Below, one piece after another: positions 9,650-42,098 of a stretch of 64,000 nucleotides of DNA. Origin of the DNA: Halichondria panicea (Eukaryota; Porifera; Demospongiae; Suberitida; Halichondriidae); contig NC_087388.1 in assembly GCF_963675165.1 (NCBI RefSeq), positions 4,531,047 to 4,595,046 of the forward strand, written 5' to 3'. Below the pieces are notes generated by a model, which was not told where the DNA came from, did no database searches, and was given only the letters and a program-made list of their open reading frames with translations. The translations under genes were made by a program, and so were the position numbers. Position 1 is the stretch's first letter. Each line of letters opens with the position of its first letter.

Positions 9650-9997
9650 AAAGCCGCTCTCAAATTAGTAGCTTTTTTGCTAGCAAAATGAAACATATAA
9701 TTATAGTATAGCCGCTTTCATATAGCCTCAGTGAACTTTGACTCTAACATTTCTGCACTGTATAGCAGCCATATTAATACTATAGCAGCTAGCTACAAGT
9801 AGCTATAGGTAGCAGCTTGTTAGTGCTTCATGAAGACTTTCTCATGGCAGAGTTCGAGTTTATGCAGGTAAGAACTTTTGATGACAAACTTGAATTAGCT
9901 GGGGCTAATAAACGCCTCTCTTGAACAATATGGCCTCTCTCGAATTGTAGCCTCCTCTGCCAACATTTAGTAGCCACATGCAGCCTCTGATCAAGCA
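9650..9997. repeat. GATCAGAGGCC-type repeat, inverted copy
   Basis: It starts with gccgctctca and ends cctctgatcaag, with long stretches matching the reverse complement of 6039-6345 (segments near tttctcatggcag and ggggctaataaacgcctctc). It occupies the place where copy A's kinase exons should be. Confidence 0.55.
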
Positions 9998-12900
9998 TAT
10001 AGTATTACGGTATATGCTCAAAACTTTGTTAGTATAACCATGCAAGGCTTAATTATTTCATTGCTCCAATGCCAATTATAGGCGTGGGCCATGCATGCAA
10101 TAAATATGGCGATAATGCACTGGAATATGGTTTCCACCCACAGTGTTCTTTTATATTATTGTGCATGTACATGTAAAAGCTGCATGTAGTCTAGTATATA
10201 TAGTATAGTGCCACACATCGATCAGTATAATTATATAATAGCACTGGAATGCTTTATATTTAGCGGTCGGTTAAAACATGCAGATATAAGAAAAACTGAA
10301 ACTTATTAACGAGTGCAGTATTGCCATCCACAGGTAATATTTCCTCTTGAGTCCTCCTGTATAAAGATGCAATTTTGATGATTGAACAGCTATATAGACT
10401 ATAAGTATAAACTACCTATTAGACACAATACCCAATTGCAAGATATGTTCATGCATAGCAATTGACACAGTCTTCCTCCGAGAGTTCAGATAGAAACAGA
10501 CGAACACAATCATCAGCACACATATGACTATAACAACCCCTCCAAAAACACTCGGGATGATGATCTCCAGTGGAAGTCCAGCCGCAGAAACTGTGTAAGT
10601 CAGTCGCTGGTCTAATATTTGAGCAATGTTGCTCCCAATTTTCACCTGAAGAGGATATATAGTAACACAATTAAATGTACAATAACTAACTTGTATGGTG
10701 GCTGGGTTATCCCCTCCCGGGGGCTGCAAGGGGGCGGTACAGATGACTTTACTCCCTCTCAAGCTGCCAGGTGCCTTGATACACTCCTCCCCTCCTATAC
10801 TATCACTCGTATCTCACTGGTCTCCACTGAGTCGAGATCATACGGTAACAATAGGGTCACTATGCTGGCTATAGCACTATTGTACCGCAATGCCTATGAG
10901 GGTCTTCTCTGTGCCACTGATGACCTCTTGAGAACTCTCTAGTCTAAAGTTAGATGGATCTGATTGGACGCTGATAGGGAGGCATGCTTGTGTAATGAGT
11001 GGAACACCATCAGACATCAGGGCATAGTCCAATGGGATCAGTGAGGTTGTTGTCAGACTAGGAGTCAAGCATGTGATGGTTGTATTGTCCACAACACTGC
11101 AGTTGCTCCTCTGCAGGGGAGAACACATAGCGTTTACCACTAGTTGGGCGGAGCCCAACCACGACTATCAAAAAGAGTGGTTGAGTATCATTATTTGTTT
11201 CACTGGTACTTTTCATGTGTAGGCAGAGTGAATATTGTGAAAGAGGCACAGCCAGCAAAAATACGTATCGTGTAGAGAATATAAGTGCGAAACTTTCGAG
11301 GCGCTAGCTGTTTTCAATGGTTAGCAATCCTCATGAAGATTACATAGCTAATGGCAGATGCAACGTGCATTGACATACCGTATAGCGTGAAATGTATTCA
11401 ACGCGAAATGACAGTTAAGTGCCTCAGTGAATATTTATATAATTATAAGACTTACCCTAAGGCGCCTTTTCAAAGACCAGGGAAGGCACACATAATATTA
11501 TAAGCACACCAAATTGGTAGCTGTAGTGGAACAAAAACATGCATAGTACTGATACCCAACCATACCCTTCGCGTTGGTTGGACTCTGCCCAACTATGGTG
11601 ATACAGTGTTTTCAAAGGAACAATTGTTAAGGAATTAGTCAATTGAATGTTCAACATAATTATGTAACGACATATATATAGTATGGTGGGTTTTTGCTCT
11701 GCTAAAATTTCTAGTACCATAATTATTACTGGAATATTTTGCGGATGAGCCAAATCAGCAGAAAAGTTGACCCTTTTGCGATCTAACTATTGCGTTCTGG
11801 CAAGAATCGTGTGTATTATAATTTAGGTTTTGCGATTTTACTGTTGCGAATTGATCAACTCTCGCAAACTTCGCTATGTTTGATGCTGTATGCACAAAGC
11901 TTGCGGCCCTCGAAAATGTCCCGGGCCGCTATATTCGGTATAGTTGCTGGCTCACCAGAGGAGCCCCCATTGGCTGGTAGACCTCCAACACACAGGCTGT
12001 TGTACCACGTCCAAGTGCACTCCAGTGAAGTTAAGTATGCATGATGCCACACTGGGTATGGTGTTACTAGGAGACATGGCAGTCACATTGGGATTGTTTT
12101 GATAATTGAAGACTACTCTTGGATTGCTGACTCTGGCAGCATCAATTGTTACCACTACCACTAATGCGTCGGAGGCGAGGTTTGCTGCTGAGGTCTTGCA
12201 ACGAATCTCTTCAGACTGGATAGATCTGCAGGGAAACGTTTGAAGACTGTCAATATATACAGTCACTTACAGTATGCTGCAGATGTAACTTGACCCGCTG
12301 ACCTCTAGAGAGACTCCAGTATCCTCCTGGTTGCCTACGTCCAGCCCAGTTCCTATCACAGCCACTGTGGTTCCCCCGGTCATAGGTCCAAAGGTCGGAG
12401 TAACACTGTTGACGATAGAATCCACTGCAATGAAGGAGCCGGCGCTTACGATGGCTACTCTAGAACCAATGGTCAGAGAAATCTCTTTGAGTCCTCCAGT
12501 TATGAAGTTAGTGGTCTCACAGACAAACTGGTGCCATGGTATATAACTAATGTTGAGGGGAGTGCAGGCCACACCTCCTAATGTTAGGGCAGAATTCCGA
12601 ATGTCGGCAAAGGTCCCTCCAAATTCAATGCCCATCACAGTGATTGCAGTGCCACCCTCAACTGGTCCTGTGGGTGTATAAAATACACTCTAGGTTTGTA
12701 TCGATCCCCACATAGCTATAAAATAAAAGGCTTTAAAAAACATGATAGACACTTCAAATGCACGTCAATACTGTGATCGTCAATGATAGTGATATTAGAG
12801 GTATACGCTCACTGAATTCTTACCTGACATTGGAGTGAATGAGTTGATGACAGGGGGAGGAGGATTTCCCCCCTCAGTAAAATTGTTGGAGCACTCTTGC

Positions 12901-13008
12901 ATCACCTCACAACTATCCTCACACCACCCACATCTGAACTCTGACCCCATTCTGGCCGCAATACATTCTAAATATCCACTGACAAAATCACTACAATTAT
13001 ACAATTTC

Positions 13009-13010
<2 letters not shown>

Positions 13011-13082
<72 letters not shown>
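13011..13082. repeat. (TG)n microsatellite at a splice acceptor
   Basis: About 36 TG units directly abut the PSI3 exon of copy A, so on the coding strand the intron ends in a long CA tract followed by CAG. A second TG tract lies at 14193-14257 in the same intron. Confidence 0.9.
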
Positions 13083-13083
<1 letters not shown>

Positions 13084-14188
13084 CTTGATCGGGAGACCAC
13101 AAGATGGGTCCCCCGTACAAGTGGGGGACCCATCTCGTTCTTAGAGGGTATTGTGTGTTTAAACGTTCCTATAAAATGGCTTAGTACAGTGTGGATTGTA
13201 AGTTGTGAAACAGCTTGGAGATGATTAAATACCATGCAGGGTGTATATTACTAAATGTGAATGCTGCTACGATTGGAGTGACTTATTAATATACCAGAAA
13301 GGATTACATCATAACTTTGTACCTAATTAAATTTAAAAATGCTCCGGCCAGCTCTTATATGCAAGATTTCCCCACTCTTCGAAAAGAGCTTGTTGCCACT
13401 GGGTTAGACAACTGTGAACCGTCAACCCGACTGGCGAACCAGTCCCGTGCATAGCACGTTGTGTGTTTGAGAATGGTATATACAGAAGTATAGGGGGTGG
13501 GATCGAGCTTTCCGACACATAATTACTGACTCAGCCTAAAACTTAGAAACAGCTCAAAGTTATAAATGCAATCCAATCTGTATCTAGGTTATTTTGCATA
13601 TAGTCTATCACAGTGTGTCTACATTATTTTGGGAAGCTCTTCAGTAATAGTTAAGGGACTATAGAAAAAAAAAGGAAACAAAAGAACAAACAGCACAAAA
13701 CCATACTGGTAGAAAAAAAGCAATCAGATGCCCGACCTTGAGAGTCGAGAATGATGGGTTAAAGAGTCTTTAACGGTGCACTAACCCTCCCCACTCATCT
13801 GTTGCATTCAGAACGACTAGTATACTCAATAATTATTGTAAGCTACTCACTTGGGGCCATGCTGATTGTAAGCTATATTCACATTTGAGGTAATGCTGAC
13901 ATAAAGTATAGAACTTATCTTAGACTTGATATTGGCTGCTGTAATACTTCAACTTAGCTTGTGCATGGCTGTGTACTTGTGTAAACTAAATCTGACCGAC
14001 TTTGAGGGAGGCTTAATTTATAAGGTACATGCAGGCCTGTATTGTCTGGGCCAGGTTTTGTGGTGGTAGTATCTGATAATGGGGACGGGTATTCTATGTG
14101 GTTCTTCTATATAGGTGGCAAGAACAATCATGCTCATTAATCTCTAATTTTGAATTAGCACAAGGCATTAGTCAAAATAAATAGATAG

Positions 14189-14228
<40 letters not shown>

Positions 14229-14624
14229 ATGTGTGTGCGTGTGTGTGTGCGTGTGTCTGGAGTGGGGCCGATGCAATTATGAATTATCTGTAAGTACGTT
14301 GTTTAGACTATTGAATGTGTTCTGCACGTGAAAAGCTAACCTTTGCGTTCTGGTAAGGATTGTGATGTCATACAAGTATATTTGGAAACGTGCATCGAAA
14401 TGACACCATTAATTTTATTTGACAGATATATAATATTACCTGAGATTTGTTGCATATAGTGTTGCTCAGTGTGTGGTTGACTTCATTGCCCGTCCAGGTT
14501 ACCATGACAACCAAATGGGAACTGCCAACCCCAGCGGGAAGTGTGAACTGTACACAGAATCGTCAGCTAGTATGTCCATATGCATTACTTAATCAGGCAT
14601 AATCATATAAGTATACTTGATCAG

Positions 14625-19646: not shown

Positions 19647-22600
19647 TTAATTGTCTGTTGTAGTAATTTCTTCACTGAGGTCGTAGGCTTCGTTGTTTTT
19701 AATAATTGTCAGAGGGTAGCCTGACGGAGGGTCAACATAGCGATGAGCGTCTTCAGTGAGTGCGGGTTCACAGTCACATTCTGCATTAAGATTATGAATA
19801 TTAATAACAATAAAAGATGCTCAGTAAAGTATTCATCCTGTCCGTTGATATTAAACGAACACAAAATTGACATTATGGGGAAGGATCATGAATCTATAAA
19901 AGCAACGATTATATCGATTACAGTGGCGTAGGAAGATTTTTTGCAATGGGGGGGCTGATAGTAGTCTGGCCACGCCCTCCCCAACTGCAAAGACTGAAAG
20001 AGGCTGGAATTCGAGACTAGGCTCACAGATCAATCATTATCTCTGTGGTAGATCTATCGCTTTGTACTTTAGACTTTTGAAACCTAGCCCATCATTGAAA
20101 TAATCACAGTTTTAGCTAGCTGGCTGCAGCCAGCATCCTGTAGCTAAGCTAGCTCAACAGTTTAAGCTAAACATTGCTCTCCAACAAGGGGGGGCTCCAG
20201 CCCCTGGAGCCACCCCACTTCCTACGCCACTGGATTAGTTTTTTGTCGTCTTCGAAGATCGCCTACAAGTTTCAACTATTATTATAAGTAGCCTACTGTC
20301 TCATTAGCAGTTAAATCAGCTAGCTAGTCCACGAAAGTATCTAGTTCGCGAAAACAGCTCATTTTGTGTCCACACACACACACAAACCGACACACACACA
20401 CACACACCAATCGCTCTACCCCTGCTGCATACAGCACGAGGTAATTATTAGTACACTATATAAGACTCCTGGAAGTGCATGGGTATATACATTTACACCT
20501 CACAATCACAATTTGATCCTTTAATTACACACTTACCGAGCTGCTTTGCCTCTTGAACTGTGTTTAGTAGCACCATATTGAGCTCTGTGTAGCCAGAAAT
20601 TAATGTCAGTAACTTGTCCACAATCGCAGACAGTTGGGAAAAGGTTGGCCTCTCTTCTGGGTCTTCCCTCCAACACTTTTGCATCACCTCATAACTGTGT
20701 GAGAATAATTATAGTGGGATGCATAATATACATTCAAAACAATAATCAAATGAGCGCATTGCAGCCAGCTCCGTGAATTACTCAACACAGAGCGTTTATA
20801 TAATTATGCACATGCACTCACATCTCGGTGTCACAGGCTGCATTAAGAGGTCTCTTGAGTCTCTGCCCCTCCCCCAGCAGCTGGATGAGGGACAGCGGGT
20901 CTACGGCAGGATAGGGGGTCCGTCCTCCATTAAAGACCTCCCACACAGTCACACCATATGACCACTAGGAACATGAACAAAAATTACATGATATTTTCTT
21001 TATATGCATGCATCAGTCTATGTACTCACCACATCAGTTTTCTCTGTGAAGATGGCATCGTTGAGACTCTCCAATGCCATCCATTTGAAGGGCAGCTTCA
21101 CATTGGCTCGGTCGTTCTGTCTGAAGTAGCCGCTAGCATAGACATCCTCAGCCAGACCAAAGTCCCCCACCCTGACACCCCCTCCCGAGTCCAGCCTGTA
21201 TATATAGGAATGTATATACAAGATGAAACCACACTGCATGTGGCCCATGAATTGTACACATGAACTATATAATGTAAGTACATATTTATCCAGTGTGTGT
21301 GCATTATTGACTTGGTGTTGCTGATTTTATCGATGCCATTGGATATAGTAACAAATGCTCTCCAAATTGTATAATTATTGTGGTGTATTCTAAGCAATAA
21401 ACATTGCATGCGTATATTATAGTTACTAGCTTTATTATAGTGACTCAGAGTTTTTTCTGTACACACTGTCAATGGTCCACCACTCACATGCAGTTTCTGG
21501 CTGCAAGATCTCGATGGACGAATTTCTGTTCACCCAAGTAGGCCATTCCCAGTGCTATCTGACGGCACATATTTAGTAGCAGTTTCCTTACTTGTAGAAT
21601 CTGTATGGAAAATATGACAGCTTCCTTAAACAACGGTCCTGATTTTTAACCGAGGTCTAAAAAGCTCTCACTCTTTTGTATTTTCCATGATATACTTTAA
21701 TTATACTCAGTGCTCAGTATATTATCCACAACGCTTAGAATTAACGCCAGATATATCTAGATCACTATTATAGCTCTCTGACACTGGTCTCTCAGTTTTA
21801 CACTTTGCATGCACTGATCGGCTAATACTGCATGAGAGCTATTTCCTTAACCCATACAGGTCAGTTCATTGGGTTTGTACAAACCACCCTTCCAGTTAGT
21901 TTATACACGATCTATATTAAGGTGACATATTTTCGCGTGTATTAATTTCTGCTATTTCTGCGAATGGAGTAAAATCGCAAAAATTAGTACTCGCAAATAA
22001 TTGGCCGCCCTCTTGTTTAATGTATCCAGATCGACATTCGCAAACAATTATACCAGCAAAATGTACAAAACTGTAAAAACGCAAACAAATCTACCTGTGA
22101 AAATATGTCACCTTAAGGTATACTGATTCCATAGCTATACATGTAGCTGCACTGTCATAACAACACAAGTTCTCTCTGCATGATAAGAGGGTGGGGCTGG
22201 CTACTGGCTGAGTCAGCTATATAGTCTAGATCAGCCACACAGTCGAGGTAATCTTTTCCTAGATCTGCCCTTGTACTGACACTGTACAAATAAAGTACCA
22301 CACACCTGATCAATGTCACAGTCATCGTTCAACTCAAGGCTGCTCCTCTCTCTCTTAAGATAGTCAATGAGGCTCCCGTTTGCCATATATGGCATCACTA
22401 TGGCAATGCCGGGGCCAGCATCGAGACACACCCCAATCAGGGACATGACGTAAGGATGGTTGAAGTCATGCATTTTGTTCACCTCACACACCATGCTCTG
22501 AACATCAGACATTGAGAATAGACCTGTAGAGTATCAAACAGCTGGTAATTCAAAATAGTTGTGGTTTTCGTGGTTGAAGCTCTGACCACGAATATTTTAC

Positions 22601-25600
22601 CCATGAATGAAGCGACATTGCCTACCTTCACCTACAGTGCAAGCAGCAACCACGAAAATGACTAAATATTGTTCAACCACGAATATTTTGCCCCCCCCCC
22701 CAAATTACCTGCTATACAGGCGATATTACGTGTGTTGACCATAAATTGTAATCTATAGGGAGCATAAATGTTGTATAACCGACAGTCATTAGATTAACAT
22801 AACACTATAATATACATAAGTGGCTGACAAGTGACAACACTGTATTAAGCTACATGAAATTGTACTGTTTAATAGTGATGTCACCTTTTAATGTCTTCAC
22901 GGCGACCCCTTGCATAGGAACTTTGTTCCAGTCTGTCAGGACACCCTTGTACACAATGCCAAATTCACCTGTATAGTGACATCCCATAAATGAAGTATAA
23001 ATGTACATCTTTGTCTATACCTTACCTTGTCCAATTGCAGTACTGGAGAGCTTCAATTTTGAGGCTGGTATTTTGAATGAGTCTGGGATGGACTCAGCAA
23101 TCTCAACAAGTTCTGATTCTGTGCATGGTGAGTTAAGATTATAGATTTTAGTCTGACTATTAGTATATAATTATGGCATGGCACGAGTATACAAATAATT
23201 GGAGTGACGTAATGCCAGAGGGTATTACACTTATAGGCCTTGGCTATAGATTATGCTCGAGACATTGCACGCATTATTATCTCAATTTAAACCATGAGTT
23301 CAACATTTAGACCCCAGAATATCAATCAACAGTATATAGGTACATGCATGGTGTTTTTTGGAATGAGGGATGTTGATACTATAATTTCTCAGTTTACAGA
23401 GATCTCAGAGTATCAATAACAGTGTGCATGCAGAGCAATAACAGAGGTAACACGCAGTACTGTTTGGAATGCAAATTCTTTAATTTCAACCATTCTAAGC
23501 GCCGTGTCTTTTCGGTGCATGCGTGCCAGTTACAAGGCTGTAGTAGATTATGCTTGGGACATTGCCTCTCAAAATAACAGCCTATTATTCCCGTATTATT
23601 TCTCAGTGTAAACCACGAGCACGCACAACATAGCACCAATTCAACTAATGTGAGCTACTATACTTAGTCGTAATACCTATACTACTGACTCAATACTGAT
23701 CGACCTGTGTTTCCAAAGCCTGCATGCATAGGTCTCATGATAAAGGTGTCTATTATGCCAACATAATTGTTTCCCAAACGTGCCTATAATTATAATTTTT
23801 ATATGCTCAAAATTTTGCTAGTATAACCATGCAAGGCTACTTGCTGCAGTGCCAATAATTATTATAGCAGTCGAGGGTCGTGTAATGCATAGCAATCATA
23901 ATAATGTATAGTGCAATGCAGGTTTCTACGCATGGTTATGTGTTATTGTGCATGTAAGCTGCATGTAGTATAGTATAGTGCAACACATCAAATATATATA
24001 ATAGCACTGGGATGCTTTATCTTTATAGCGGTCATTTAAAACATACAGATGAAACTTACTAACAAGTGCAGTATTGCCATCCACAGGTAGATCTAGTATT
24101 CCCTCTCGAGTTCTCCTGTATAAGGATGCAATTTTAATGATTGAACAGCTAGACTATAAGACTTAGTTTAAACTACCTATTAGCCACAATATCCAAGATC
24201 TGTTCATGCATAGCAATTGGCACAGTCTTCCTCCGAGAGTTCAGATAGAAACAGACGAACACAATGATCAGCAGACATATGACCATGACAACCCCTCCAA
24301 AAACACTTGGGATGATGATCTCCAGTGGAAGTCCAGCCGCAGGAACTGTGTAAGTCAGTTGCTGGTCTAATATTTGAGCGATGTTGCTCCCAATTTTCAC
24401 CTGAAGAGGATATAGTAACACAATATTAAGCTACAGTTTCTCACTTGTATGGTGGCTGGGTTTTCCCCTCCCGGGGGCTCCAAGGGGGCGGTACAGATGA
24501 TTTCACTCCCTCTCAAGCTACTGGGTGTCTTGCCACACTCCTCCCCTCCCACCGTCACTCGTATCTCACTGGTCTCCACTGAGTCGATATTATCACCCTG
24601 AATACATACGGTATAACAATAGGGTCAGTGTACCGGCTATATGTACCACAATGCGTATGAGCATCTCTGTGCCACTGGTGACCTCTTGAGAACTCTCTAG
24701 TCTAAAGTTGGATGGATCTGATTGGACGCTGATGGGGAGGCGTGCTTGTGTGATGAGTGAAACACCATCAAACATCAGGGCATAGCCCAATGGGGTCAGT
24801 GAGCTTGACGTTAGGTTAGGAGTGGAGCACATGATGGTGGTATTGTCCACAACACTGCAGTTGCTCCTCTGCAGGGGAAGTATACATAACATTTACCACT
24901 AGTTGGACGTAGCCCAACCACAGTCGTTAAAACAAGTGGTTGAGTATCATTCACTCGTACTTGAGGCAGAGTATGAATATTGTGATCGTGTAATATCTTG
25001 ATAGCTTGTAGATGCAGGCAAGAGCTCTGTCAGAGCTGGTAGAGAAAGTAAAAGGGTGCGCGCTGCAGCCAGGTTTAGCTATAGTATAGAGGCAGCAATA
25101 ACTAATACCGTATATCTTCTTATCGGACACTAAATTATCCTGAAAACTTTTCTAGATATAGCACATGAAGTAGTGCGAACTTTTCGCTGTTTTCGAGGGT
25201 TAGCAATCCTGATACTAAGGGAGACCATACTTCATTAGCTAGTAGCCTATACACTAGTAGATACGTATATGGCAGGAAGCTGTTGCTGCATCTCTATAGA
25301 GAAATACAATCAGCTCGTCTTAATTTCCAGCTAGGCTGTATTGAGCTATAAGTTTTCTCATTTGAACGCAGCAATCAGAAATGTTCTACAGTGGAACAAA
25401 AACGTACATATAGTATACTGATACCAATGCAACCATACCATATACCCCTCGGTTGCCAACTATTGTAACACAGTGATGCGGTCAAGGGAAAAATTGTATT
25501 TCAAACAAAATGTGTGTTCAACATAATATTATTATGTAACGACACAACATTTTCTACATGCAGGTATGGTGGGCTTTTGCTCTGCTAAAATTTCAAGCAT

Positions 25601-28600
25601 GCACAAACCTTACAAAAAAACACTTCACGAACATTTAAGCCTCGAAAATTACCTGGGCTGCTATTCGGTTAGTTGCTGGCTTACCAGAGGAGCCTCCATT
25701 GGCCGGTAGACCTCCAACACAGGCTGTTGTACCACGTCCAAGTACACTCCAGTGAAGTTAAGCGTAATGCCTCCACTGGGAATGGTGTTGCTAGGAAACA
25801 CAGCAGTAACATTGGGGTTGTTACAATAAATGAAGACCACTCCTGGATTGCTGACTCTGGCAGCATCAATGGACACCACCACTAATGCAGCAGAAGTGAG
25901 GTTTGCTGCTGAGGTCCTGCAAAGAATTTTCTCAGACTGGACAGATCTGCAGGGAAAGGTCTGAGCATTGTCTGTTACTCAATATATACAGTCACTCACG
26001 ATATGTTGCAGACGTATCTTGACCACTCGCTGATCTCCAGAGAGACTCTAGTGTTCTCCTGGTTACCCACGTCCAGTGCAGTCCCACTCACAACTACTAC
26101 AGTTCCCCCCGCCATGGGTCCAAAGGTCGGAGTCACCCTATTGATAGTAGGATCCACTGCAGTGAAGGAGTCAACGCTTACGATGGCTACTCTAGAACCA
26201 ATGGCCAGAGAAAACTCTTTGAGTCCTCCAGTTACAAAGTTGGTGGTCTCACAGACAAACTGGTGCCATGGTATAAAACTAATGTTGAGGGGAGAGCAGG
26301 CCACGCCTCCTAATGTTAGGGCAGATTTTTGAATGTCGTCAAAAGTCCCTCCGAGGTCATTTCCCATCACAGTGATTGCTGTACCACCCTCAACTGGTCC
26401 TGTGGGTGTATACAATACAGGTTTGTTATCCTCCTAGCTATAAAACTATAGTAAAAGGTTTCAAAATAATGATAGACACTTCAAATACTATAATTGTCAA
26501 TGATGGTATCAGAGGTAAAATGCAGTACTGTATGCTCATGTATTCTTACCCGATATTGGAGTGAATAAGTTGATGACAGGGGCAGGAGGATTTCCCCCCT
26601 CGGTAACAAAGGTGCTAGAACATTCCTGCATCACCTCGCAACTATCCTCACACCACCCACACCCAAACTCTGACCCCATTCTGGGCGCTAAACAGTCTGA
26701 ATATCCACTGGCCAAATCACGACAATCATACAATGTCACTGTTGTTGTGTGTGTGCATGTGGAGTGGGGTACAGAAAAGACTTGTGTACATGTATCTATA
26801 TATATTGTATCTAGTCTATGTTTTCGTTTGTTTAGATACAATTCTAGTACTAGAACGTCTTCTGCGCGTGAAAAACTTTTTCTAATGAGCCAATTTTAAA
26901 ATAATCAGCAGACTTTGTGATCTAATCTTTGCGTTCTGGTAGATTGTGATGTCAAACAAGTATTGGTATATCAATTTTATTTTTGAAGAGATAAAAAAAT
27001 TGCAAAATCGCATGCTCGCAAAATATTTGTAAATTATCGAGAGATGACATTAGTACCTGAAATTTGTTGCATAGTGTTGCTCAGTGTGTGGTTGACTTCA
27101 TTACCCATCCAGGTTACCATGACAACCACATGAGAAGTTCCAACCCCAGTGGAAAGTGTGAGCTGTACACAAAATCGTCAGTATGTCCATATGCATTAAT
27201 TAATCAGGCATAATCATGTACAAGTGTGGGAATAGTGACTTCACTGACTGACATGCAATCCTCTTCATTACAGAGCCTATATTGTGTACCACATTATTCA
27301 GGTGACATTGTCAACACTCACTTGTCCACTGCCCACTGTACACAGGATGGAGCTCTCGTTCTCGTACCGAGCTGTCAGATTAACTCCATTCACAACACAA
27401 AAGTACTCAAAACCATCCGTCTATGCATGAGAAAGCCATGGAACAATGGAGGTACAAAGGTTATGCGACTTACGGGGGCGATGAGGTGCCTGGTTGTCAG
27501 TCGAAGGTCCTGGGCCACCCTTACTGGTTGAGTGTACACACCAGAGGGGGGCGTGTCCAACAGGGGGCACTCAGCAGTGAAGTCATTACCTCCAGACACC
27601 TGTACAGATGATGTATATGTATAGTGCAGGTCACCAAGATCACTCAGCTCACCTGTAGGAAGTGAGATACATTCCTGCAAGGAGCCGATGTGCCACCGCA
27701 CTGCTTGTTGAGGTTACACCATCCACACGGACTGTTGAGCCCGAGGCAATCCTTACAGCTGTAGAGAATATAGATACAGCCTTATCTGTAAGTAGGACGG
27801 TATAGTCAGTCTGAGTCATGCATGCATATACCTCGAGACAGAAAGTTTATTTTGCAAGCTAGAATTAAGCCTAGAAACTGTTATTTTGCAACCGTTGATT
27901 ATTTAAAACCAGCAGGCGATCCTCGAAAGGCTGTAAAAACAATGCTGATCTCATTGTAAATTCACAATCACTGATTCTATCACTCTATATGTTGCTCTCA
28001 ATTACAATCCGCGTGGATAAACTTAAGTGTTGGTACGGTAGATGCTGAGCAAGAGAGACAGGGAGCCTCCCTCAAAAATGCGTGCGGTAGCAATGTGACT
28101 TTATTAGGTGTAGCCTTGGTTTGCAAAGTGGTTCCTTGTACTGCAGACTATTATACTATCAAATCTATATAATTATAGTTGGCACTGCAGTGCAGTTATA
28201 GTCAAGCTGTTTATAAAAGACAACTTATAGGTCTACAGCTGCTCAGCTATAGCTATATCAGTCTGAGAGTGACTTCCATCAGCCAATATGGCACATAGAT
28301 AATTAATTTGCCCATAGGTCAGGAGGTACTTGAGCACCCTCTGCTAGATCCGCCCCTGGGGTATAGACATCAATTCTAGGCCACAGAGAAAAGAGATTAG
28401 TGGCCTACTCTACAGACGAGTAGGGAAGACAGGGGCGTAGCCAGACTTTTGAGACAGGGGTTTCTTCAGAAAAATCAGCGGCGCGATAGCGCCGCGAAAT
28501 TTTGTGGCCACGCCCACTTCCGGTACCACACCCTCTTGATTGGGGCACACCTACTGTTTATTGACTATTGTTCATGACTTTTTTACATGTTTGTGAGAAG

Positions 28601-31600
28601 CTAGCTAGCTATAGACGTAACATACTAGGCATGCAGGTGCCAATTGTGTATTGCTAGTCTAGCTGAGCAACAATTAAATGTCATTTACCTGAGAGGTTTC
28701 ATGTGGCTGAAATTGTTCTAAACTTGTACACTTCCTGAATAAAGTTGTGCTTAGAGCTGAGTCTGAGAATACTGGAGCATTCAGGATTGATACTAGATCT
28801 AGAACTTAAGTCTTGGTCTTCTTTGTTTGAGGTAGCTAGCTAGCTGAGACTAACTACCTGAGACAAAGCCAAACACGGTGCTGCTCTGATTATTGATTTG
28901 CAGCCACGTGTGAAAAGATGGGCAGGGCTGCATGATTTCAATTATAGGGAGCCCTGCCCAATTTTCTCAGCAGCTCCTGGGGGGGTTTCTGGGCAACCAG
29001 GAAACAATGGTAGCTACGCCCCTGGAAGAGAACAAGGTGTGTGATTGCAGCACTTCAATTTAGTGCCGCATTAAAAGTGAAGTTCTGCAATCATACCATC
29101 CATTGTTTTTACAACCCTACTCGATCCGCACCCACAAACATTAATTATGCATGTACAATACTGAACATAACACACACGACGTGGTAAGTGCTCTGCTATT
29201 ATTTTTTAGTGGCACGGTGAAAATGGTACTAAACATATGCGATCAATGATTGTGGAGCTTAAGCGTATTATGAATACCTTTCTCCTGCTGAGCACCTGTA
29301 GATAGTGAGTGCTTGGTTGGTGATGTCAAATGGCTTATTGAACAAAGAGCTCTGAAAGCCCAGGCTGATGTTTGCAGTCACTCCAGGGTAGTCAGGCATC
29401 AGTCCTTCAATATCACAATGGAACACTGTTCCAGGGGTGACCTCAACAGCTGGTACTATGAATGGTGGGAAACGTCTTTCACTGTCTGCCAGATGACAGG
29501 ACATGTTTTCTCCAGGCAGACGATCAGGAAGGCCGGGGGAGGTCAGAGTCACTGTGAGCTGTGGGGGTCAGTTTATGATCAGACACATGTCAACCATATA
29601 CAAAGCATGCATGCATGCCTTACCTCGTTAGCAAGAATCGCAGAGTCAAGCACAAGTTGCATAGGGTCCACAGTAGCAGCAGTAAAACAGTTGGCATTAT
29701 CTTGTGTCCATCTACTGGAAAGACTGGAGTTCTGACACTGGGTCTGACGAGAGCACTTGTTCTCCACCACACACCACCCACACAGCGGGTTGAGGTCATT
29801 GGTACAACTGGTACAGTCTATACGCTGAGAGCACTCCTCAATCGGTACCTGGAACACCTGTAGAGAGGGGAGTCGGGGATGTAGATAGCTTAATTAGGTT
29901 TGCAAATGGCAAAATTACAGCTTAGGTTTGCCAATGGCAAAATTACAGCAGGAAATGTTTACTAAATATTTTCATATCCTCAGAGTATATGCATGTGTAG
30001 ATCAATGTTTCACAGTGATGTCTACAGTACGGCCCCAATATACGAAGAATGGCAATATAAGCTTTAACTCACAGAGTCTCTAGTGACTGCTGTGATGTAG
30101 TTCAGTCCCTCCTGCCATGACAAATGAAATACATCAGAGGTCACTGGCTGATTGTAGAATGAGCTATCAGTGTCCAGGGTCAATGTACCACTGACATCGT
30201 ACTGTGGAGAGACAAACAATGCCATAATTACACTAATCATGGCATGACTAACCATATATCTTCTAATTTATCGGACAGCAAAAAATGGAAATTGTCTGGG
30301 TATAATTATATAATCATATAGAGCACGTGAAATGTCCGGAATAATTAGAACAAGCATGAGCTTGCCGATTTTAATAAAACAGTGTGCGACTGAATAGTTA
30401 CTAGCTATCTAACACTAGCTAATCCTCAAAGCTATCTAATTGCATGCAGCACTCTTGCTGGCTATAAAGATACTTTGCATGGTTAGGGTTAGGGGTTAAG
30501 GTTTGGTTGCTCGGTATGTATAACTCAAGGTATTGTCTGGATATTTATTAAAGCACCAGAGTGTCCGCTGTATTAGAACATCGAAACCAGAAAAAGTCAC
30601 AGTCCGGGATATTAGAAGTGTCCAAAGATATTATACGGTATATATATATAGCTGAGTCAGCTGACTCAATCATGCACTTACTCCTCTTATCTTCGAATCA
30701 TCAGTTGCCACAAATATTAAAGAGAACTGTTCCACCTTCACAGCTACTGAAGCAATAGGGACAAGACTGTCTTCGAAGTTGATACGAACTGGTGCTATTT
30801 TGTCAATACCACCATTTGGAGTGAGAAGGCCGACTGGACTGGGTGTGTCACATCTGTCTTCAGTTACCTGGAAAATAGAATTGTTATGTTAGAAGTATAC
30901 CAGTAAATATACAAACCTGAGGCTGGGGCAAGGTATCGCAGTTTTCTGAGCCTGTTTTCCATTTTAAGCCAATTTCTTCTCCAACAGTACGTGACACAAT
31001 GCAAGAGTTATATTTAGTGTCTATAGCTTCATCGACAGCAGTGATATTGACCAGACAAATAGAGTTAGCACCGCCGTAACAAATATTTATGACAGCAGTG
31101 GGCCCAGATATTCCACTGAAGTCCTCCACTAATGACACTGCACACAAACAAGTATCTTCAGTGATCCCCTGAAAGCCGCAATCGAACCCCAGTTCATACA
31201 AAGCAGTCACTCCACAGGTACTTGGGCCTCCACAATCAGGCAGGTTGCAAACACGTAGCAGTCTTATAGCCTGTGCACTAACAGGTCGGAAGTCAACGAC
31301 AACATAGTATGCAAATTCACCACTCACAAAACCACCATATGCGTAGAATTGTCGTTCAAAGTTACTAACTCCAAAAACAAATTCATTGCGCGTGCCTGAT
31401 GGATTTTTATCAGACGATCTACTAAACCCCTCTCCAAACTGTTGCAGTGCCATCTCATTTTCTGCTCCAGATCCAGTGAAGAAAGTGTCTCCTGACGCAA
31501 TGATAGCTGCTCCATAATCAAGAGCTACTATAGCATCACTGACACTCCTGATGGGACCAGCACTGAGGTTGCTTGCATTGTAGAGAGAGCAAGAGAGATC

Positions 31601-31888
31601 ATCTAAACACACCACCAACATCCCAGTAGAGCTCAGGGCCAGTCCTTCGTTAATAACAGCATCTCCTAGATCAACTCTCTCTTCTTGTATTAGCTGAGCA
31701 TTCAGTCTATACAGGTAATTGTCTGCAGCAAGAAATGTTCTCCCAGTGGAGTCCACTTGCAATCCTGGGAGATTGTCAGAGTCATCAACGAAATCAAAGG
31801 AGAACGATTGTGAATGAGCTGCTCCTTGCAGAACAAACAAAGCTAGGAAACCCACTAGCATAGCCATCTCTATATTCTGTATAAACAT
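19647..31888 (-). CDS. Receptor tyrosine kinase with plexin-type ectodomain, copy B (intact)
   Basis: Twenty-four exons join in phase: 31888-30917, 30867-30682, 30201-30073, 29857-29624, 29558-29278, 27758-27653, 27599-27474, 27420-27322, 27162-27057, 26738-26550, 26399-26000, 25946-25685, 24868-24647, 24597-24445, 24400-24177, 24115-24060, 23118-23026, 22968-22885, 22523-22306, 21600-21488, 21195-21030, 20964-20822, 20694-20537, 19780-19647 (4854 nt, 1617 residues). Order of domains: signal peptide ([19 protein letters not shown]), Sema to about 430, PSI1 (CTSC...CGWC), IPT-like segment, PSI2 (CKDCLG...CGWC) near 602, linker, PSI3 near 748, then several IPTs, transmembrane helix near 1180-1205, juxtamembrane, kinase about 1270-1560. 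Kinase motifs: [45 protein letters not shown]. The short tail has tyrosines in RYVDP and EAYDLS. Inferred role: a cell-surface receptor signalling by tyrosine phosphorylation; the ligand is unknown. Confidence 0.92.
19921..20232. mobile_element. CAGTGGCGTAG element, 5-base target duplication
   Basis: 312 bases starting cagtggcgtaggaag and ending cttcctacgccactg, flanked by gatta at 19916-19920 and 20233-20237. It lies in the last intron of receptor B. Copy A keeps the empty site near 8880-8890 (acaattagatttttgtcg). Confidence 0.9.
28430..29024. mobile_element. CAGGGGCGTAGC element, 5-base target duplication
   Basis: 595 bases starting caggggcgtagcc and ending gtagctacgcccctg, flanked by gaaga at 28425-28429 and 29025-29029. 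It sits in the intron of receptor B between the PSI1-side IPT exon and the PSI2 exon; copies C and D lack it there. No coding capacity seen. Confidence 0.88.
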
Positions 31889-34198: not shown

Positions 34199-37100
34199 CT
34201 AGCTGAGGTCGTACATTCTGTTTTTAATTGTTAGCGGATAACCTGACGGAGGGTCGACATAGCGATGAGCGTCTTTTTGATCAGTAAGTGTGGGTTCACA
34301 GTCACATTCTGCAGTTAAAGAAAATCGTAATCAATTATTGTTGGACATGCAAAAGCCATTCCAGATGATGATAATTATACAAGTTGTACGTTAGTCAACT
34401 CTATATAGTTATAGGACTCTCGAAAGTGGGTATTATTTTTGTAAATGATCTATATTATTATATAGCTACTAGATAGTAGCGGTACTAAATAGAAAAAGTA
34501 GGCTAATATTATGTCCATAGTAAGAGCTATAAACATTGTTCACAAATTAAACTCAGGATAAACGTTTCAAAACTTACTGAGCTGCTCCACCTCTTGAATT
34601 GTGTTCAGTAGCACCATACCGAGCTCAGTATAGCCAGAAATGGAAGTCAGTAGCCTTTCCAAAATGGCGGACAGTTGTGAGAAGGTTGGCCTCTCCTCGG
34701 GATCCTCCTTCCAACATTGACGCATCAATTCACAACTGTGTGAGGATAGAGTGGTATATACGGTCAGTTGGAATGAAAAGATAATCAAATGACTACCCTC
34801 CCGGCCCCCAATCTATCCCCTCGGAGGATTGCAGCCAGCCCCAATAATTTACCTGTCCCCAAACCAACGACAGAGCTCTGCATACATGGGATAATTACTA
34901 GAATCGATATCATCGCTGAATATACTGCTCCACGCAACTATTGTTGACGTATATAAATTATACTCAACAGAACTCAAGAGTGTACACTCACATCTCGGTG
35001 GCACAGGCTGGGTTGATAGGTCTCTTGAGTCTCTGCCCCTCCCCCAGCAGCTGGATGAGGGACAACGGGTCCACGGCAGGGTAGGGAGTCCTTCCTCCAT
35101 TGAATACCTCCCACACAGTCACACCATATGACCACTGCATGGGCGTATGGACAAGAGGTAACAGTAACAATTGATAAATCAAATTTAAGGTTAAGTCAGA
35201 AACATCCATTTCATATGGGGTTGAGGTTAGACAATGCTTGTAATAGGGCATATCTCACGGGAAGCTCTGCTATGCAATTCATGATAAAATTATGATAGTA
35301 GCTAAATGAAAGAGGAACAAACTGAATAGGATCACACAGTTGACTTGTCCTGTTGGAAGTGTGATGTGTATATATAATTATAGTGTTAGTAATCAGATCC
35401 ACGTTTTTTGTGAGCTTATAATTATATAATTATACTGTTTTGCTTCTCTTTTATCATCTGTAAGAACCACATAGATATTCAAGTTAGGAACTACTCAAGA
35501 GACATGCACTAATACTACAGTATAACTCTTTCAGTGCTTATATACGTTGTACTTGCAGTTGCAGTACGAGATGGCCTGAACACTTTCTTTATTGCTCACC
35601 CCTTCAATCCACTGGTCATACTAGGCATATGGATTGTTTGCTTCTCCTATTAGGGTCACGTGAGCGCCCATGGGAGGTACCCAACCCACATCCGTTACAG
35701 ACATACAAACAAGGGGCGTAATTAAGTGTGTAGCATGTGATCTTTAGGCAGTATATGCGTCTATATACCATGCAGCACTGGCTCACCACATCGGTTTTCT
35801 CTGTGAAGATGGCATCGTTGAGACTTTCCAAGGCCATCCATTTGAAGGGCAGCTTCACATTGGCTCGGTCGTTTTGTCTAAAGTAGCCACTAGCATAGAC
35901 GTCTTCAGCCAGACCAAAGTCCCCCACCCTGATACCCCCTCCCGAGTCCAGCCTATAATAAAAATGTGATTGCTGTCTAATTATATAATTATAGTAGTGC
36001 ATTCTATATATAAGCAAATAATGAATTTTGCATGTAATAATTATGTACACATGCACTGTCGATGGTTCACTCACATGCAGTTTCTGGCTGCAAGGTCTCG
36101 ATGGACGAACTTCTGTTCAGCTAAGTAGGCCATTCCCAGTGCTATCTGACGGCACATCTTTAGAAGTAATTTCCTTACTTCCAGAATCTATGCAATGTAT
36201 TCGTACTTGGTGCTCTTATTTTTGACCCAGCTCTGAAAAACCCCACCACCTCCTCTATTTCTATTGAGACTATACTCAGCACTATCCCCACAACACTCAC
36301 ACTAATAAATTGAACAAATCTTACTTGTTATAAAAAACATCAGTTGTGAATAATCAGTCATGCATGTATACGTAGTTAACCGTGCATGTAGTATAGCTAT
36401 AATTATTGCATGCATTGTGATGTATATGAGCTGTTGTGGATTTTATTGAGGATAAAGAGGCTGCAGAGTCAAGGAGTTGAGCACCCACTGCCAGATCTAG
36501 GCTGGTCAAACGGTGAAGTGAAAGAAATTGTGGGGTCACAGAATTCTGATTGCGATAGCAAAAGGGAATGTAGTCAGCTTCCTCCACAGGCCTCGAGAAA
36601 AAGGAAGTGGGCGTAAACACCAGGAGGGTGTAGTGTGCTTCCCCCCCCACTATCACAAACTACACACTAAGTAAAGCTCAGCTCCACCCGTGCACCTCTC
36701 TGTTGCCGGGAGACACCCACACAATACTCATACTATAAACGTATCTCTTCATACTTACCAGCATGCTGGTAGTTGGTAGATACTGAAAGCTATTTCCTTA
36801 ACCGGCCGGGCCGTAATTAACACACCTGATCAATTTCACAGTCAATGTCCAGCTCCAGACTGCTCCTCTCTCTCTTGAGATAGCCAATGAGGCTCCCATT
36901 GGCCATATATGGCATCACTATGGCAATGCCGGGACCAGCATCTAGACACACCCCAATCAGGGACATGACGTGAGGATGGTCGAATTCCTGCATCTTGTTC
37001 ACCTCACACACCATGCTCTGAACATCTGACAATGAGAACAGACCTGCAGAGTAGAGAATGACTAACGGACTAATCAGAAATGCGAAGTTGTGTGTGTTGT

Positions 37101-39232
37101 ATTGTTAGTAATTGGCCAGTAATTAATAGAACATAGTACCTGACAACGAAAACAAGCTATACATGTTTGTATTGTGGTTAAATGATGTCACCTTTTAGTG
37201 TCTTCACAGCCACCCCCTGCATAGGTACATTGTTCCAATCTGTCAGGACGCCCTTGTACACAATGCCAAATTCACCTGCGCAGTGCATGCATGACATCCC
37301 ATATAATGAAATGCATATCTTTGTTTACCTTGTCCGATTGCAGTACTGGAGAGCTTCAATTTTGAGGCAACTATTTTCATTGAGTCTGGGATGGACTCAG
37401 CAATCTCAACAAGTTCTGATTCTGTATAATAGGTCAGTTAAGATTGCATGTAACAGAGACTAAGGTGAGAATAAGAAAGTATACTGAAACTTACTAACGA
37501 GTGCAGTATTGCCGTCTACTAGATCTACCTCCTGACTTCTCCTGTAATGATGAAAATATTAAGATGATTGCATGAATAGCTGTAAACTAAGTTCACCTAT
37601 TAGCTACGAGCTCCATGATCTGCTCATGCATAGCAATTGACACGGTCTTCTTCCGAGAGTTGAGATAGAAACTGACAAAGATGATCAGCATTACACACAC
37701 TACCACTATAGCCCCCCCAAAAACACTCGGGATGATGACCTCCAGTGAAGTTCCAGCAGCCACAGGACTTGTGTACGTCAGTTGCTGGTCTAATACTTGA
37801 GCAATATTGCTCCCAATAGTCACCTGAAGGGGCATGCACAATAACAGCTAGAGTTCAATAGTCACTCACTTGTATAATGGCTGGGTTTTCTCTTTTCGGT
37901 GGCTCCAAGGGGGCGGTACAGATGACTTCACTCCCTCTCAAGCTGCCAGGTGTCTTGACACACTCCTCCCCTCCCACTGTCACTCGTATCTCACTGGTCT
38001 CCACTGAGTCGAGATTATCACCCTGAATACACATACGGTATAACAATAGGGTCACCATGCATGCTGGCTATAGCACCATATGTACCGCAATGCGTATGAG
38101 GGTCTCTGTGCCACTGGTGATATCTTGTGAGGTTTCTAATCTAAAGTTGGATGTATCTGATTGGACGCTGATGGGGAGACGTGCTTGTGTGGTGGGCGGG
38201 ACATCGTCAAACATTAGAGCGTAGTCCAATGGGGTCAGTGAGGCTGTCTTCAGGGTAGGAGTGGAGCATGTGATGGTTGTATTGTCCATAGCACTGCAGT
38301 TGCTCCTCTGTAGGGAGGGACAGTGCATCATGTACTGTATCTATTTTTGAGGGAAAACATCTAGAACAAGCCACAAAAATACTCAGTCATGAAAACAATA
38401 ATAAATTTACAACTTCGACACAAGTGGCTGCAAAAATTTCAAAAACGTCGCTATGTGTGACCATCGAAAATTATCTGCTATATACGATATAGCTTACCAG
38501 AGGAGCCCCCATTGGCTGGTGGTAGACCTCCAAAACAATCTGTTGTACCACGTCCAAATTCATTCCAGTAAAGGTCAGTGTGATGCCTCCACTAGGAATG
38601 GTGTTGCTAGGAAACACAGCAGTCACATTAATTAGGGTTGTTACGATAACTGAAGACCACTCTTGGATGGCTGGCTGACTCTAGCTGCATCAATGGACAC
38701 CACCACCAAAGCATCGGAGATGCAGTTTGCTGCTGAGATCCTGCAATTAATCTCTTCAGACTCGATAGATCTGCAGGAAAAGTTTGTAGCTATAGTATTA
38801 ATAATATTATCAAGTAGTGAGTAGGGTTGGGTCGAAAACAGCAAAAATGCCCCCTCTGGATCTCACCCAAGAAGCAAGACAAAGTTATTTTGAGTTTATA
38901 TATCTGTTGCCCATAATTATCATTTGTGACATTTGTGTGAAATATGAACTGAATTGAACATTGTATGAAAAAGTTATAAGAACAGCAAAACAACAAAAAC
39001 AACAACTTTTTGTCATTCTTCTCCTCAGGGTCTTCAGTGAGATAATTTAGAGAAGTGTAGGTCCACAGCACAAACTAGTGACATATTACTGTTCTCAGTA
39101 GCCTTGGGTACCGTAGTGCAGTAACTAATCTATTTCCTTCGAAGTTAAATTTGCTACGGTGGAAGCTACGCCCTCTTTAATGGGTGTAGAGGTGAGGTCG
39201 CCATTGTTTACCTACTGAGCATGCTCAGACAT

Positions 39233-39354
39233 CAGAGGAGGTACGACATCCGCGTGTCATCCGCATGTCTTTAACACACACATTCCGAACTTTGACCTAA
39301 GGAATGTGTGTGTTAAAGACATGCGGATGACACGTGGATGTCGTACCTCCTCTG
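39233..39354. mobile_element. 122-base foldback element with 9-base target duplication
   Basis: Arms of about 54 bases (cagaggaggtacgacatcc... and its complement) with one mismatch, 14-base loop. It is flanked by ctcagacat at 39224-39232 and 39355-39363. It lies inside an intron of copy C. Different ends from the TAGCC family but the same architecture. Confidence 0.88.
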
Positions 39355-39810
39355 CTCAGACATAGCAAAAAGCACGGCCACGCCCCTCTTATCTTAGCAA
39401 TCACTTGAGATCTATAGCAACAGTGGTGTTTTGAACTGTCGATTCTTACCGCTCCAGTTAATGCTATCCGCAAGTTAAGCCGGCCTGGTTGACAAGCTCA
39501 TCTAATATTCTGAGGCTCTGAGCTGAGCTCCTTAAGCATATGAATTATTGCTACATGTACTGATTGTACAAGACCAAGAACTTTATGATAATTATCATGA
39601 CAGACACAAACTGCAACATTCTGCCTGCATATAGAAATTCAGTACAGCTAAGCATCTGAGTTAGCTGCATCAACATTCATAGTAAAGGTGGCAATGGCAC
39701 CTACTGATCTAGCTAGCACCATAGGCTATGCTGATACCTGTGAAGAAAAAATGTACAAACAAATGTAAAAAACATTTGTGAAAAAATAATGGTGAGAAGT
39801 ACGTATAGGG

Positions 39811-39879
39811 TAGCCTCGTTCCCAGGCCGGAGTCGACCTAGCGTTCAATTGGAGACGGATCGGCCTGGGAACAAGGCTA
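39811..39879. repeat. 69-base TAGCC-ended repeat
   Basis: Starts tagcctcgttcccaggccg and ends cggcctgggaacaaggcta. The flanks share only taggg, so a target duplication is not convincing. A larger degenerate member with similar ends is 43721-44053, also without a clear duplication. Confidence 0.65.
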
Positions 39880-40105
39880 GAAGTAGGGTTGCATCGGCTA
39901 TGGTTGCATGTTGGATGAGCTGCTCAAATACCAAAAAGGACGTGCGGAACACAAATATGGGTACTAATTATAACCCTAAAAGAAACACCTAATACAAAAC
40001 GTCATTAGTTAAAATAGTGTATGTGGTCTCCTCACTTATAAAAGTTAACTCTCTTAGACTATTATAATCATAAATAATGCATGCAGTGAAAAAAGTTTAC
40101 AAAGA

Positions 40106-40667
40106 AGTGTAAAAAATATTTTGTGAAAAAATGGGAAAGAGTAGGGTTGGAAGAGCATGTGCACTGAAGTAACAAAAAGTTCGAAAACAAGATTGTGGGT
40201 TGGTATAGTCTTTGCATGCTCTAACTAGTTGGGGATGGGGATCAATCATTTGCGATCTTTAACAGTTGGGTCCAGCACTACTTCGAGTTTGGGTGGGCAG
40301 GGCTCATCTGTAGAGTCTCAACTCAAATTTAATAATAATTACACACCATGTGTATCGATGCTGGTCCCTGGCGGAAAGAAAAGTTCGAAAAAATCCTCAT
40401 TCAAATGCGTCATTCTTATATCGAAACACATGCAAGTTGATGGTCAAATAGGGGATCGAGCGCCTCGCATAAAGAAAAAGGTGTAACGAGAAGTAGTGCT
40501 GGACCCAACTGTTAAAGATCGCAAAGATTGATCCCCATCCCCAACTAGTTAGAGCATGCAAAGACTATACCAACCCACGATCTTGTTTTCAAACTTTTTG
40601 TTACTTCAGTGCGCATGCTCTTCCAACCCTACTCTTTCCCATTTTTTCACAAAATGTTTTTTACACT
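40106..40667. mobile_element. 562-base inverted-repeat element
   Basis: Arms of about 180 bases (40106-40285 and 40487-40667) are near-perfect complements, for example gtagggttggaagagcatg and ggacccaactgttaaag. They enclose about 200 bases. The element ends about 22 bases from the donor side of the IPT exon at 40690 in copy C. A related end block occurs at 39735-39790, so the insertion may be larger or nested. No coding capacity. Confidence 0.8.
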
Positions 40668-42098
40668 TGTAAATTATAGTATCACTCACGATATGTTGCA
40701 AACGTAAATTGACCCACTGATCTCCAGAGAGACTCTAGTGTCCTCCTGATTACCCACGTCCAGTGCAGTCCCCCTCACAACTACTGCAGTTCCCCAGCCA
40801 TGGGTCCAAAGGTCGGAGTCACACTGCTGACAGTAGGAGCCACCGCAGTGTAGGAGCCACCGTTTACAATGGCTACTCTAGAGCCAATTGTCAGAGAGAA
40901 GACTTTTGACCCTTCTGTTATCCAATTGGTTGTCTCACACACAAACTGGTGCCATGGTATGTAACCAGTGTTGAGGAGAGTGCAAGCCACCCCTCCTAAT
41001 GTAAGGGTAGAGTTCTGAATGTCGAAAAAAGTTCCTTCGAAGTCAGTACCCATCACAGTGATTGCTGTACCACCCTCAACTGGTCCTGTGATGTAGTCAA
41101 TGTATATAATCTATCATACTTGAAACGCCTTTTATACTGGACTGTGACTATACACTACATGTTGACAATCATGCAGTGCATGTGCATGTGTACGTAAAAC
41201 GGTATAGAGTAATGATAATAATGTAGGTGATAATAATTATATACTATACGCTCACTGCATTCTTACCCGACATTGGAGTGAATGAGTTGATGACAGGGGC
41301 AGGAGGATTGTTCCTCTCAGTAATGAAAGTATTGGAGCACTCTTGCATCACCTCACAACTACCTCCACACCACCCACATGCGAACTCTGACCCCATTCTG
41401 ACTGCAATACATTCCAAATATCCACTGGCCAAGTCACGACAATCATACAACGTCACTGTGTGTGTGGGTGTGGGGTGAACTAGTAGATTGTCTGGAAGTG
41501 TCTATCCACATTATTTAATTAATTGTTGACAGATAATTATAATGGTATACCTGACATGGTGTTGCTCAGTGTTTGGTTGATATCATTCCCGTCCAGGTTA
41601 CCATAACAACCACAGGGAAACTTCCAACACCAGGGGAAAGTGTGCCGAACTATATAAACCAAATTTTCAGTAGGCACAATTATGAATGTGTTTACATGAC
41701 TGTGTGCATTATTTAATCTGCATAGCCGCACGAAGAACTGTTCCAGCTGTAACTGTTACGTGTTGCAATGCTGATAGCTTCTAATTGTATAGGCTTCTAG
41801 CTTATAGCCATATTCACAATAGCTAGTTTGATGCCAGAAGCATGCAGCAGCCATAATTATTGTGAGACTTCTGTTTCGTTAAGCTCCTCTTCCATACACT
41901 CTTGCTCTAATTTGTTTCTTGGAAACAATAATAATTTACATTAATTAATTTTATTTCGGATTGTTGCATTTTGAGTGGGCAGATTAAAGGAAACACTGTG
42001 CCAATATCTGCCATATGGCACAGGTCAAGCCTTGAACTGTGTCCTATAAAAGGAGTGATGTGTACACGGAAAGGAATGCACAAGGAATGCAACAAATC

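Follow-up and report, generated by a model that had tools for sequence, protein, structure and literature searches.

The window analysed here, a stretch of 64,000 nucleotides on contig C12 (6,759,720 bases) of the Halichondria panicea genome (131 Mb in 39 contigs), carries on its reverse strand a gene, named gene B, which is confirmed as a predicted single-pass receptor: in the product deduced from the genomic sequence a plexin ectodomain is followed by a tyrosine kinase, and there is no plexin GAP. The gene model comes from an exon-chain search in which conservation relative to the window's other copies gave the score, only GT-AG introns were admitted and the phase was kept. All introns are GT-AG by this constraint, and the reading frame is open over the 24 exons with zero internal stops. 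In a first run two very short exons (8 and 10 bases) and a spurious one near 24.9 kb had been called; these disappeared when the penalty was raised. A first-pass annotation of the stretch had placed a 24-exon gene at the position given in the first line below, and the search returned identical coordinates and exon number. The product contains, in this order, a signal peptide, a diverged Sema domain, three PSI domains, IPT/TIG domains, one membrane helix and the tyrosine kinase, distributed as follows.

19647..31888, reverse strand: gene B, plexin-ectodomain receptor tyrosine kinase, 24 exons, 1631 amino acids (exon-chain gene model and domain matches)
29834..31888, reverse strand: signal peptide (by eye) and diverged Sema, exons 1-3 and the start of exon 4 (plexin-profile alignment; no Pfam Sema)
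29687..29833, reverse strand: PSI1, residues 438-486 (Pfam and genome PSI search)
27588..29279, reverse strand: PSI2, residues about 601-640, two exons (aligned with Plexin-A1)
26629..26733, reverse strand: PSI3 core, residues 763-797 (aligned with Plexin-A1)
24338..26580, reverse strand: IPT/TIG domains, residues 814-1190 (four Pfam TIG stretches)
24218..24325, reverse strand: transmembrane helix (by eye) and first juxtamembrane residues, 1195-1230, where plexin similarity stops (comparison with the H. panicea plexin P0008)
20628..23041, reverse strand: tyrosine kinase domain, residues 1289-1557, with a YASGYF loop (Pfam, PDB matches, motif inspection)
19647..19780, reverse strand: C-terminal tail exon with YVDP, YPLT and YDLS (gene model, motif inspection)

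Pfam assigned to the product the kinase (residues 1289-1557, E 6.5e-80), four TIG stretches and two PSI stretches, and no RBD, GAP or Sema family. The plexin GAP family PF08337 has six matches in the genome, at C12:6.48 and 6.73 Mb, and none within the window. Human Plexin-A1 aligns in one piece with residues 275-1071, through PSI1, PSI2 and PSI3 (E 1.1e-59); MET aligns over residues 765-1158 only. PSI3 lies outside the Pfam stretches and was recovered by the Plexin-A1 alignment. The PSI domains start at about 438, 601 and 763, close to the positions 435, 602 and 748 from which the first-pass annotation had deduced a plexin spacing, and where it had allowed for profiles finding only one PSI, Pfam found two and the Plexin-A1 alignment three. 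Its proposal of a plexin-plan ectodomain joined to a tyrosine kinase in place of a plexin GAP is borne out by Pfam, by this alignment and by the placement of PF08337. In one detail it erred: the motif DLRLTTRNL that it attributed to gene B belongs to copy D, gene B having DLRLTTRHL.

The missing Pfam Sema is not evidence of absence in gene B, since P0008, an undoubted H. panicea plexin with RBD and GAP, also lacks a Pfam Sema and shows only two PSI matches. A profile of seven plexin-type sequences, exon 1 of gene B included, aligns at positions 77-553 with residues 112-689 of Drosophila PlexA (E 1.3e-27). A sponge Sema profile matched P0008 and, of 11 other Sema-bearing proteins, one, a mite MET (E 2.7e-9); among those it failed to match were a fish MET, plexin-B3, P0020, the Met-LP of Pinctada and each of the five RON rows. 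Of 18 reversed controls, 0 matched. Protein searches scored about 8000 candidates each. In the kinase the catalytic motifs are present, and the best single-domain scores in PDB were those of MER, MET and RON (218, 217 and 214 bits). EGFR was the top PDB row by total score; its chain carries two kinases of 160 bits each, and it is not the nearest by single domain.

A reading-frame comparison across the window revealed four related loci, A to D, with blocks in the same order. The three besides gene B are the following.

8633..14567, reverse strand: copy A, partial, with linker, PSI3, IPTs, membrane part and last exons (frame comparison, codon alignment)
34199..48394, reverse strand: copy C, same exon order, PSI1 exon broken by an insert (frame comparison)
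57398..64000, forward strand: copy D, same order, kinase running past the window end (frame comparison)

Judged from these copies, chance is not an issue for the architecture of gene B, because copies C and D show the same succession of exons and the ratio of non-synonymous to synonymous substitution rates (dN/dS) against them is 0.13-0.51. The values for the kinase (0.13 against C, 0.18 against D) and for the ectodomain segments (0.22-0.51) point to purifying selection on both halves of the gene. At four-fold sites B and D differ in 19 of 187 positions in the Sema and in 102 of 475 elsewhere (p 0.0005), a contrast that fits exchange between copies. Copy A has no match to the Sema-PSI2 exons and retains 41 of 290 kinase codons, and its membrane part is very near that of gene B (dS 0.10 over 90 codons). 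The model of copy C contains many spurious exons and skirts the insert, so that its kinase alone entered the trees. The insert in the PSI1 exon of copy C, of about 2.3 kb (47110-44820), has inverted ends, CAGGGGCGTAGC and GCTACGCCCCTG, and a short flanking repeat, and related pieces are found at 17405-17823 and 53503-53591. Because of these three features copy C seems to have been hit by a DNA-transposon-like element.

The family extends well beyond the window. A PSI search of the whole genome gave at least 42 matches, at least 37 of them on C12. Kinase matches on C12 over the exon at query residues 58-135 numbered 33 among the matches listed, and 29 of these 33 had a PSI of their own upstream, on the same strand and within 12.5 kb, leaving unpaired 7 of 37 PSI and 4 of 33 kinase matches among those listed. 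In the control, which counted any PSI within 12.5 kb of the C12 kinase matches listed, one was present upstream in 31 of 33, downstream on the same strand in 17 of 33 and on the other strand in 2 of 33. There are at least 29 plexin-kinase loci on C12 with PSI and kinase in gene order, a count of loci and not of intact genes, some being damaged as is copy C. The segment C12:5.18-5.58 Mb holds a dense plexin-kinase array in both orientations.

Seven database proteins of H. panicea (P0001-P0007; 1505-1610 amino acids) are 71-79% identical to gene B, agree with it in their kinase, TIG and PSI domains, and are annotated as plexin-A2-like, plexin-B1-like or hepatocyte growth factor receptor-like. 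None of them seems to derive from copies A-D: averaged over tblastn pieces, stretches past exon ends included, their identity to these copies does not exceed 80%, and in the ectodomain tree a distance of 0.12 separates the closest pair, P0002 and D. In P0009-P0011 Sushi, SRCR, Calx-beta or IgGFc-binding domains stand in place of Sema-PSI2 and are followed by PSI3, IPT, membrane part and kinase (incomplete in P0011), an arrangement that, by its domain content, is modular exchange within the receptor family. P0012-P0014, also from H. panicea, combine IgGFc-binding and Sushi domains with a kinase; in these and in Amphimedon P0017 Pfam found no plexin part. Ephydatia muelleri, represented by named entries and by Em-prefixed ids assumed to be of the same species, has plexin-kinases (P0049, P0062-P0065), shorter Sema-PSI-kinases (P0015, P0016, P0059-P0061) and GAP plexins (P0047, P0048, P0050, P0051, P0067-P0069). 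The kinase EMCRGX_G027190 and the plexins G027193 and G027197 bear neighbouring locus numbers, and their contigs are equally long.

The ectodomain of gene B was compared with that of the sponge's own RasGAP plexin P0008, which carries Plexin_RBD and Plexin_cytopl and whose gene lies at C12:6.73 Mb. The protein was walked greedily along the gene, giving 12 exons before the masked part with ends good to about one residue; end positions were compared, and phases not one by one. Of 12 comparable exon ends, 11 fall within about 1.3 residues of a gene B exon end, and the twelfth (P0008 residue 745) is displaced by 14 residues in the alignment, at a place where gene B has additional residues. Because of this agreement the ectodomain of gene B is, by its exon structure, that of a sponge plexin gene. 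Its identity to P0008 is 66% in Sema, 81% in PSI1-PSI2, 65% in linker-PSI3, 56% in the IPTs and 24% in the membrane part. The match stops right after the membrane, and the next segment is common to P0009 and partly to P0012. In Ephydatia the seam differs: P0062 and P0049 remain similar to the plexin P0048 across the membrane as far as AEECKR, after which the plexin continues with the GAP and the others with the kinase. This difference in the seams suggests, at the level of predicted proteins, separate plexin-kinase joinings in Halichondria and Ephydatia.

The ectodomain tree kept 33 of 34 rows, P0069 being lost through low coverage, and P0009-P0011 entered it as rows with unrelated N-terminal parts. 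Halichondria rows grouped together (100/100), as did Ephydatia rows (100/100), and the ectodomain of Pinctada Met-LP P0070, the one Met-LP in the tree, fell outside the sponge rows. Within each sponge the GAP plexins nest among the plexin-kinases, P0008 with P0006/P0007 at 92/99 only and Ephydatia P0048 with P0049 at 100/98. A planned conversion contrast between gene B and the plexin at four-fold sites was not significant (PSI1-PSI2 exons 18/82, other ectodomain exons 89/276, p 0.076). Division into an N-terminal half (53/222) and a C-terminal half (54/136), a split chosen after the data had been seen, gave p 0.0019.

After a first kinase tree the long branches, namely Pinctada Met-LP (long, partial kinase), Physella and P0028, were excluded, and the partial kinases P0011, P0016, P0066 and L026 were not in the kinase trees. 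For the 49-row tree and the 51-row tree, to which TYRO3 and RET were added, 30 kinase loci were read in forward frames only and L009 was out. In the 57-row tree L009 was restored, both strands were read and 14 of the 30 loci were used, the remainder giving short exon frames. A clade of 24 sponge kinase rows was obtained at 100/99 in the 49-row tree (100/99 or 100/100 across trees), and MET/RON formed a separate clade of 10 rows without sponge rows (99/94, 97/93 and 99/95 in the 49-, 51- and 57-row trees). The kinase of gene B lies inside the sponge clade, which also bears SRCR, Sushi and IgGFc-binding ectodomains, and not inside that of MET/RON. The Halichondria plexin-type kinases, P0009 and P0010 included, have as their nearest relatives the Halichondria IgGFc-Sushi kinases (98/95 in the 49-row and 99/96 in the 57-row tree), and Ephydatia rows stay outside this pairing (99/95, 49-row tree). 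A clade of plexin-type sponge kinases with MET/RON, from which the IgGFc-Sushi and Amphimedon SRCR kinases were kept out, was rejected by the approximately unbiased (AU) test (cost of 80 log units and p 2.9e-8 in the 49-row tree; p 3.7e-41 in the 57-row tree).

The architecture is already known as Met-LP, a full plexin ectodomain with a kinase described in 2019 in Lophotrochozoa and Echinodermata (Junqueira Alves et al., PMC6374515). In that paper Met and Met-LP are reported in bilaterians only, the first kinase acquisition is placed in the line to Bilateria, the Met-LPs are called polyphyletic, and Amphimedon is credited with two complete plexins plus four whose cytoplasmic part is short (PMC6374515). 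As to its occurrence in sponges, no report of plexin-kinases was found in the titles and starts of abstracts listed and in some passages, subscription papers and preprints lying outside the search. Gene B resembles Met-LP in its complete plexin-type ectodomain (Sema and PSI3 being recognised by alignment and missed by Pfam), its one membrane pass and the cytoplasmic tyrosine kinase that replaces RBD and GAP. The Met-LPs of a starfish are likewise multiplied, with four genes, one adjoining a plexin gene (PMC6374515). Gene B differs in its sponge host, in the presence of 29 or more loci on one chromosome, in its sponge-clade kinase and in an ectodomain near the sponge's own plexin. With MET/RON it has in common the Sema, PSI and IPT domains and a kinase belonging to the same neighbourhood, the motif WMALESL being present in human MET and in gene B; unlike MET, which by the 2019 paper has one PSI and four IPT (PMC6374515), it has three PSI and a kinase outside the MET/RON clade. 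With the plexin P0008 it shares the ectodomain plan, exon ends and an identity of 56-81% by segment, and it differs from P0008, which has Plexin_RBD and Plexin_cytopl, in having a kinase and no plexin GAP. The SRCR/Sushi/IgGFc sponge kinases (P0009-P0014 and Amphimedon P0017; P0011 was not in the trees) belong to the same kinase clade as gene B; P0009-P0011 share with it the PSI3-IPT-membrane part as well, and differ by the other N-terminal ectodomains that replace Sema-PSI2.

We propose that the plexin ectodomain and the kinase were probably joined within the sponge lineage, apart from Met and the bilaterian Met-LPs, and probably separately in Halichondria and Ephydatia. The kinase would derive from a family of sponge receptor kinases that lies close to MET and TAM and is joined to many ectodomains; the joining to a plexin would have taken place within sponges, convergent with Met and Met-LP and perhaps more than once, with exchange between copies. 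The first-pass annotation had left the choice between a lineage-specific fusion and an ancestral link of the plexin and MET families. The fusion is favoured because the exon ends match those of the sponge's own plexin, the kinase clade spans SRCR, Sushi and IgGFc ectodomains, and a clade of plexin-type kinases with MET/RON is rejected; the ancestral link is weakened. The separate trees for ectodomain and kinase that the annotation had called for place the ectodomain with the sponge's own plexin and the kinase clade as sister to MET/RON (94/83 in the 51-row and 98/90 in the 57-row tree), with rival placements not rejected (p 0.12 and 0.21 in the latter). The 57-row results (98/90 and AU p 0.017, the latter discussed below) led us to rate the ancestral link slightly higher, and both a single joining in sponges and the sponge-lineage joining proposed here slightly lower.

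Several points weigh against this origin, and they are considered here with the alternatives to which they lend weight. The best placed of these, which we regard as possible and clearly the less probable, is a single joining in an ancestor shared by Halichondria and Ephydatia. Later conversion from plexin copies would then have rendered the ectodomains species-specific, and exchange would have deprived the IgGFc-Sushi kinases of the plexin part. Forcing the plexin-type kinases of both sponges into one clade cost 10.9 log units with AU p 0.144 in the 49-row tree, and the same constraint gave p 0.017 in the 57-row tree; the disagreement leaves room for a single demosponge joining, and the Amphimedon plexins lie outside the comparison. 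The nesting of GAP plexins among plexin-kinases and the uneven silent divergence between B and D also agree with it. Exchange between plexins and receptors could explain both the species-specific ectodomains and the shifted Ephydatia seam, as gene conversion could also shift a seam. Against it stand the lower of the two AU values, the adjoining position of the IgGFc-Sushi and Halichondria plexin-type kinases, the differing seams, and the planned contrast between gene B and the plexin, which did not reach significance.

An ancestral link, which we hold to be unlikely, would place a plexin-kinase receptor at the base of animals, with MET/RON and the sponge receptors as its two surviving lines. 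The sponge line would have kept the full plexin ectodomain and exchanged it with GAP plexins, its kinase passing to SRCR and other ectodomains. The sister position of the sponge clade to MET/RON suits such a common origin with Met, and the nearly equal PDB scores of MER, MET and RON are in keeping with it; the kinase trees contain few reference families. However, a sponge clade sister to TAM without MET (AU p 0.45, 51-row; 0.21, 57-row) or outside MET plus TAM (p 0.17 and 0.12) is not rejected either, the ectodomain is far nearer to the sponge's own plexin than to MET, and the 2019 survey has Met and Met-LP in bilaterians only (PMC6374515).

That gene B is a recent pseudogene or unexpressed is more doubtful still. 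No database protein more than 90% identical to it was found, though seven paralogues were, and copies A and C in the window are damaged; on the other side, the frame is open over 24 exons, the kinase dN/dS is low and the catalytic motifs are present. Least credible is that ectodomain and kinase belong to two adjacent genes or that the joined model is an artefact: gene B is known here from genomic sequence alone and the 17 of 33 downstream PSI matches show the PSI-kinase pairing to be partly expected from a dense tandem array, but the same order recurs in C, D and the seven database proteins, P0008 supports the ectodomain exon ends, and 29 of the 33 C12 kinase matches listed are paired.

From general knowledge of plexins and MET, the Sema of gene B may bind a semaphorin or similar cue, upon which the ligand would rearrange or dimerise the ectodomain. 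The kinase would then trans-phosphorylate the tyrosines of the activation loop and of the tail, and the phosphorylated tail would dock SH2 proteins, whereby signals perceived by plexins could also be routed into tyrosine-kinase signalling. The H. panicea genome has four Sema-family matches, none on C12 and one, at C15, with an adjoining PSI match; these loci are candidate ligands. In a study of H. panicea a plexin-group receptor and a Sema-domain gene, which may or may not be among the present genes, are reported to be up 6 h after lipopolysaccharide (PMC8242945).

Two demosponges other than Amphimedon possess plexin-kinases, which in Halichondria form a large family on a single chromosome. 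The combination of a plexin ectodomain and a receptor kinase was either reached several times or is far older than thought. In an animal that has no nerves, cues of the semaphorin type may act on a kinase in addition to a GAP, and it becomes testable whether a rewired plexin stood at the beginning of Met-type signalling.

Elsewhere in the window, Rfam and tRNA searches gave 0 matches. Between copies A and B, on the reverse strand, 16461-15418 and 18209-17961 encode TRAF-type zinc fingers and a MATH domain, with a weak RING frame upstream; the region is likely a TRAF-like gene. Retroelement frames with an integrase core and an H2C2 zinc finger occupy 56241-55236, and at 54258-54490 a 21-bp tandem repeat of 11 copies lies within an open frame that gives PSQKPD-like repeats.

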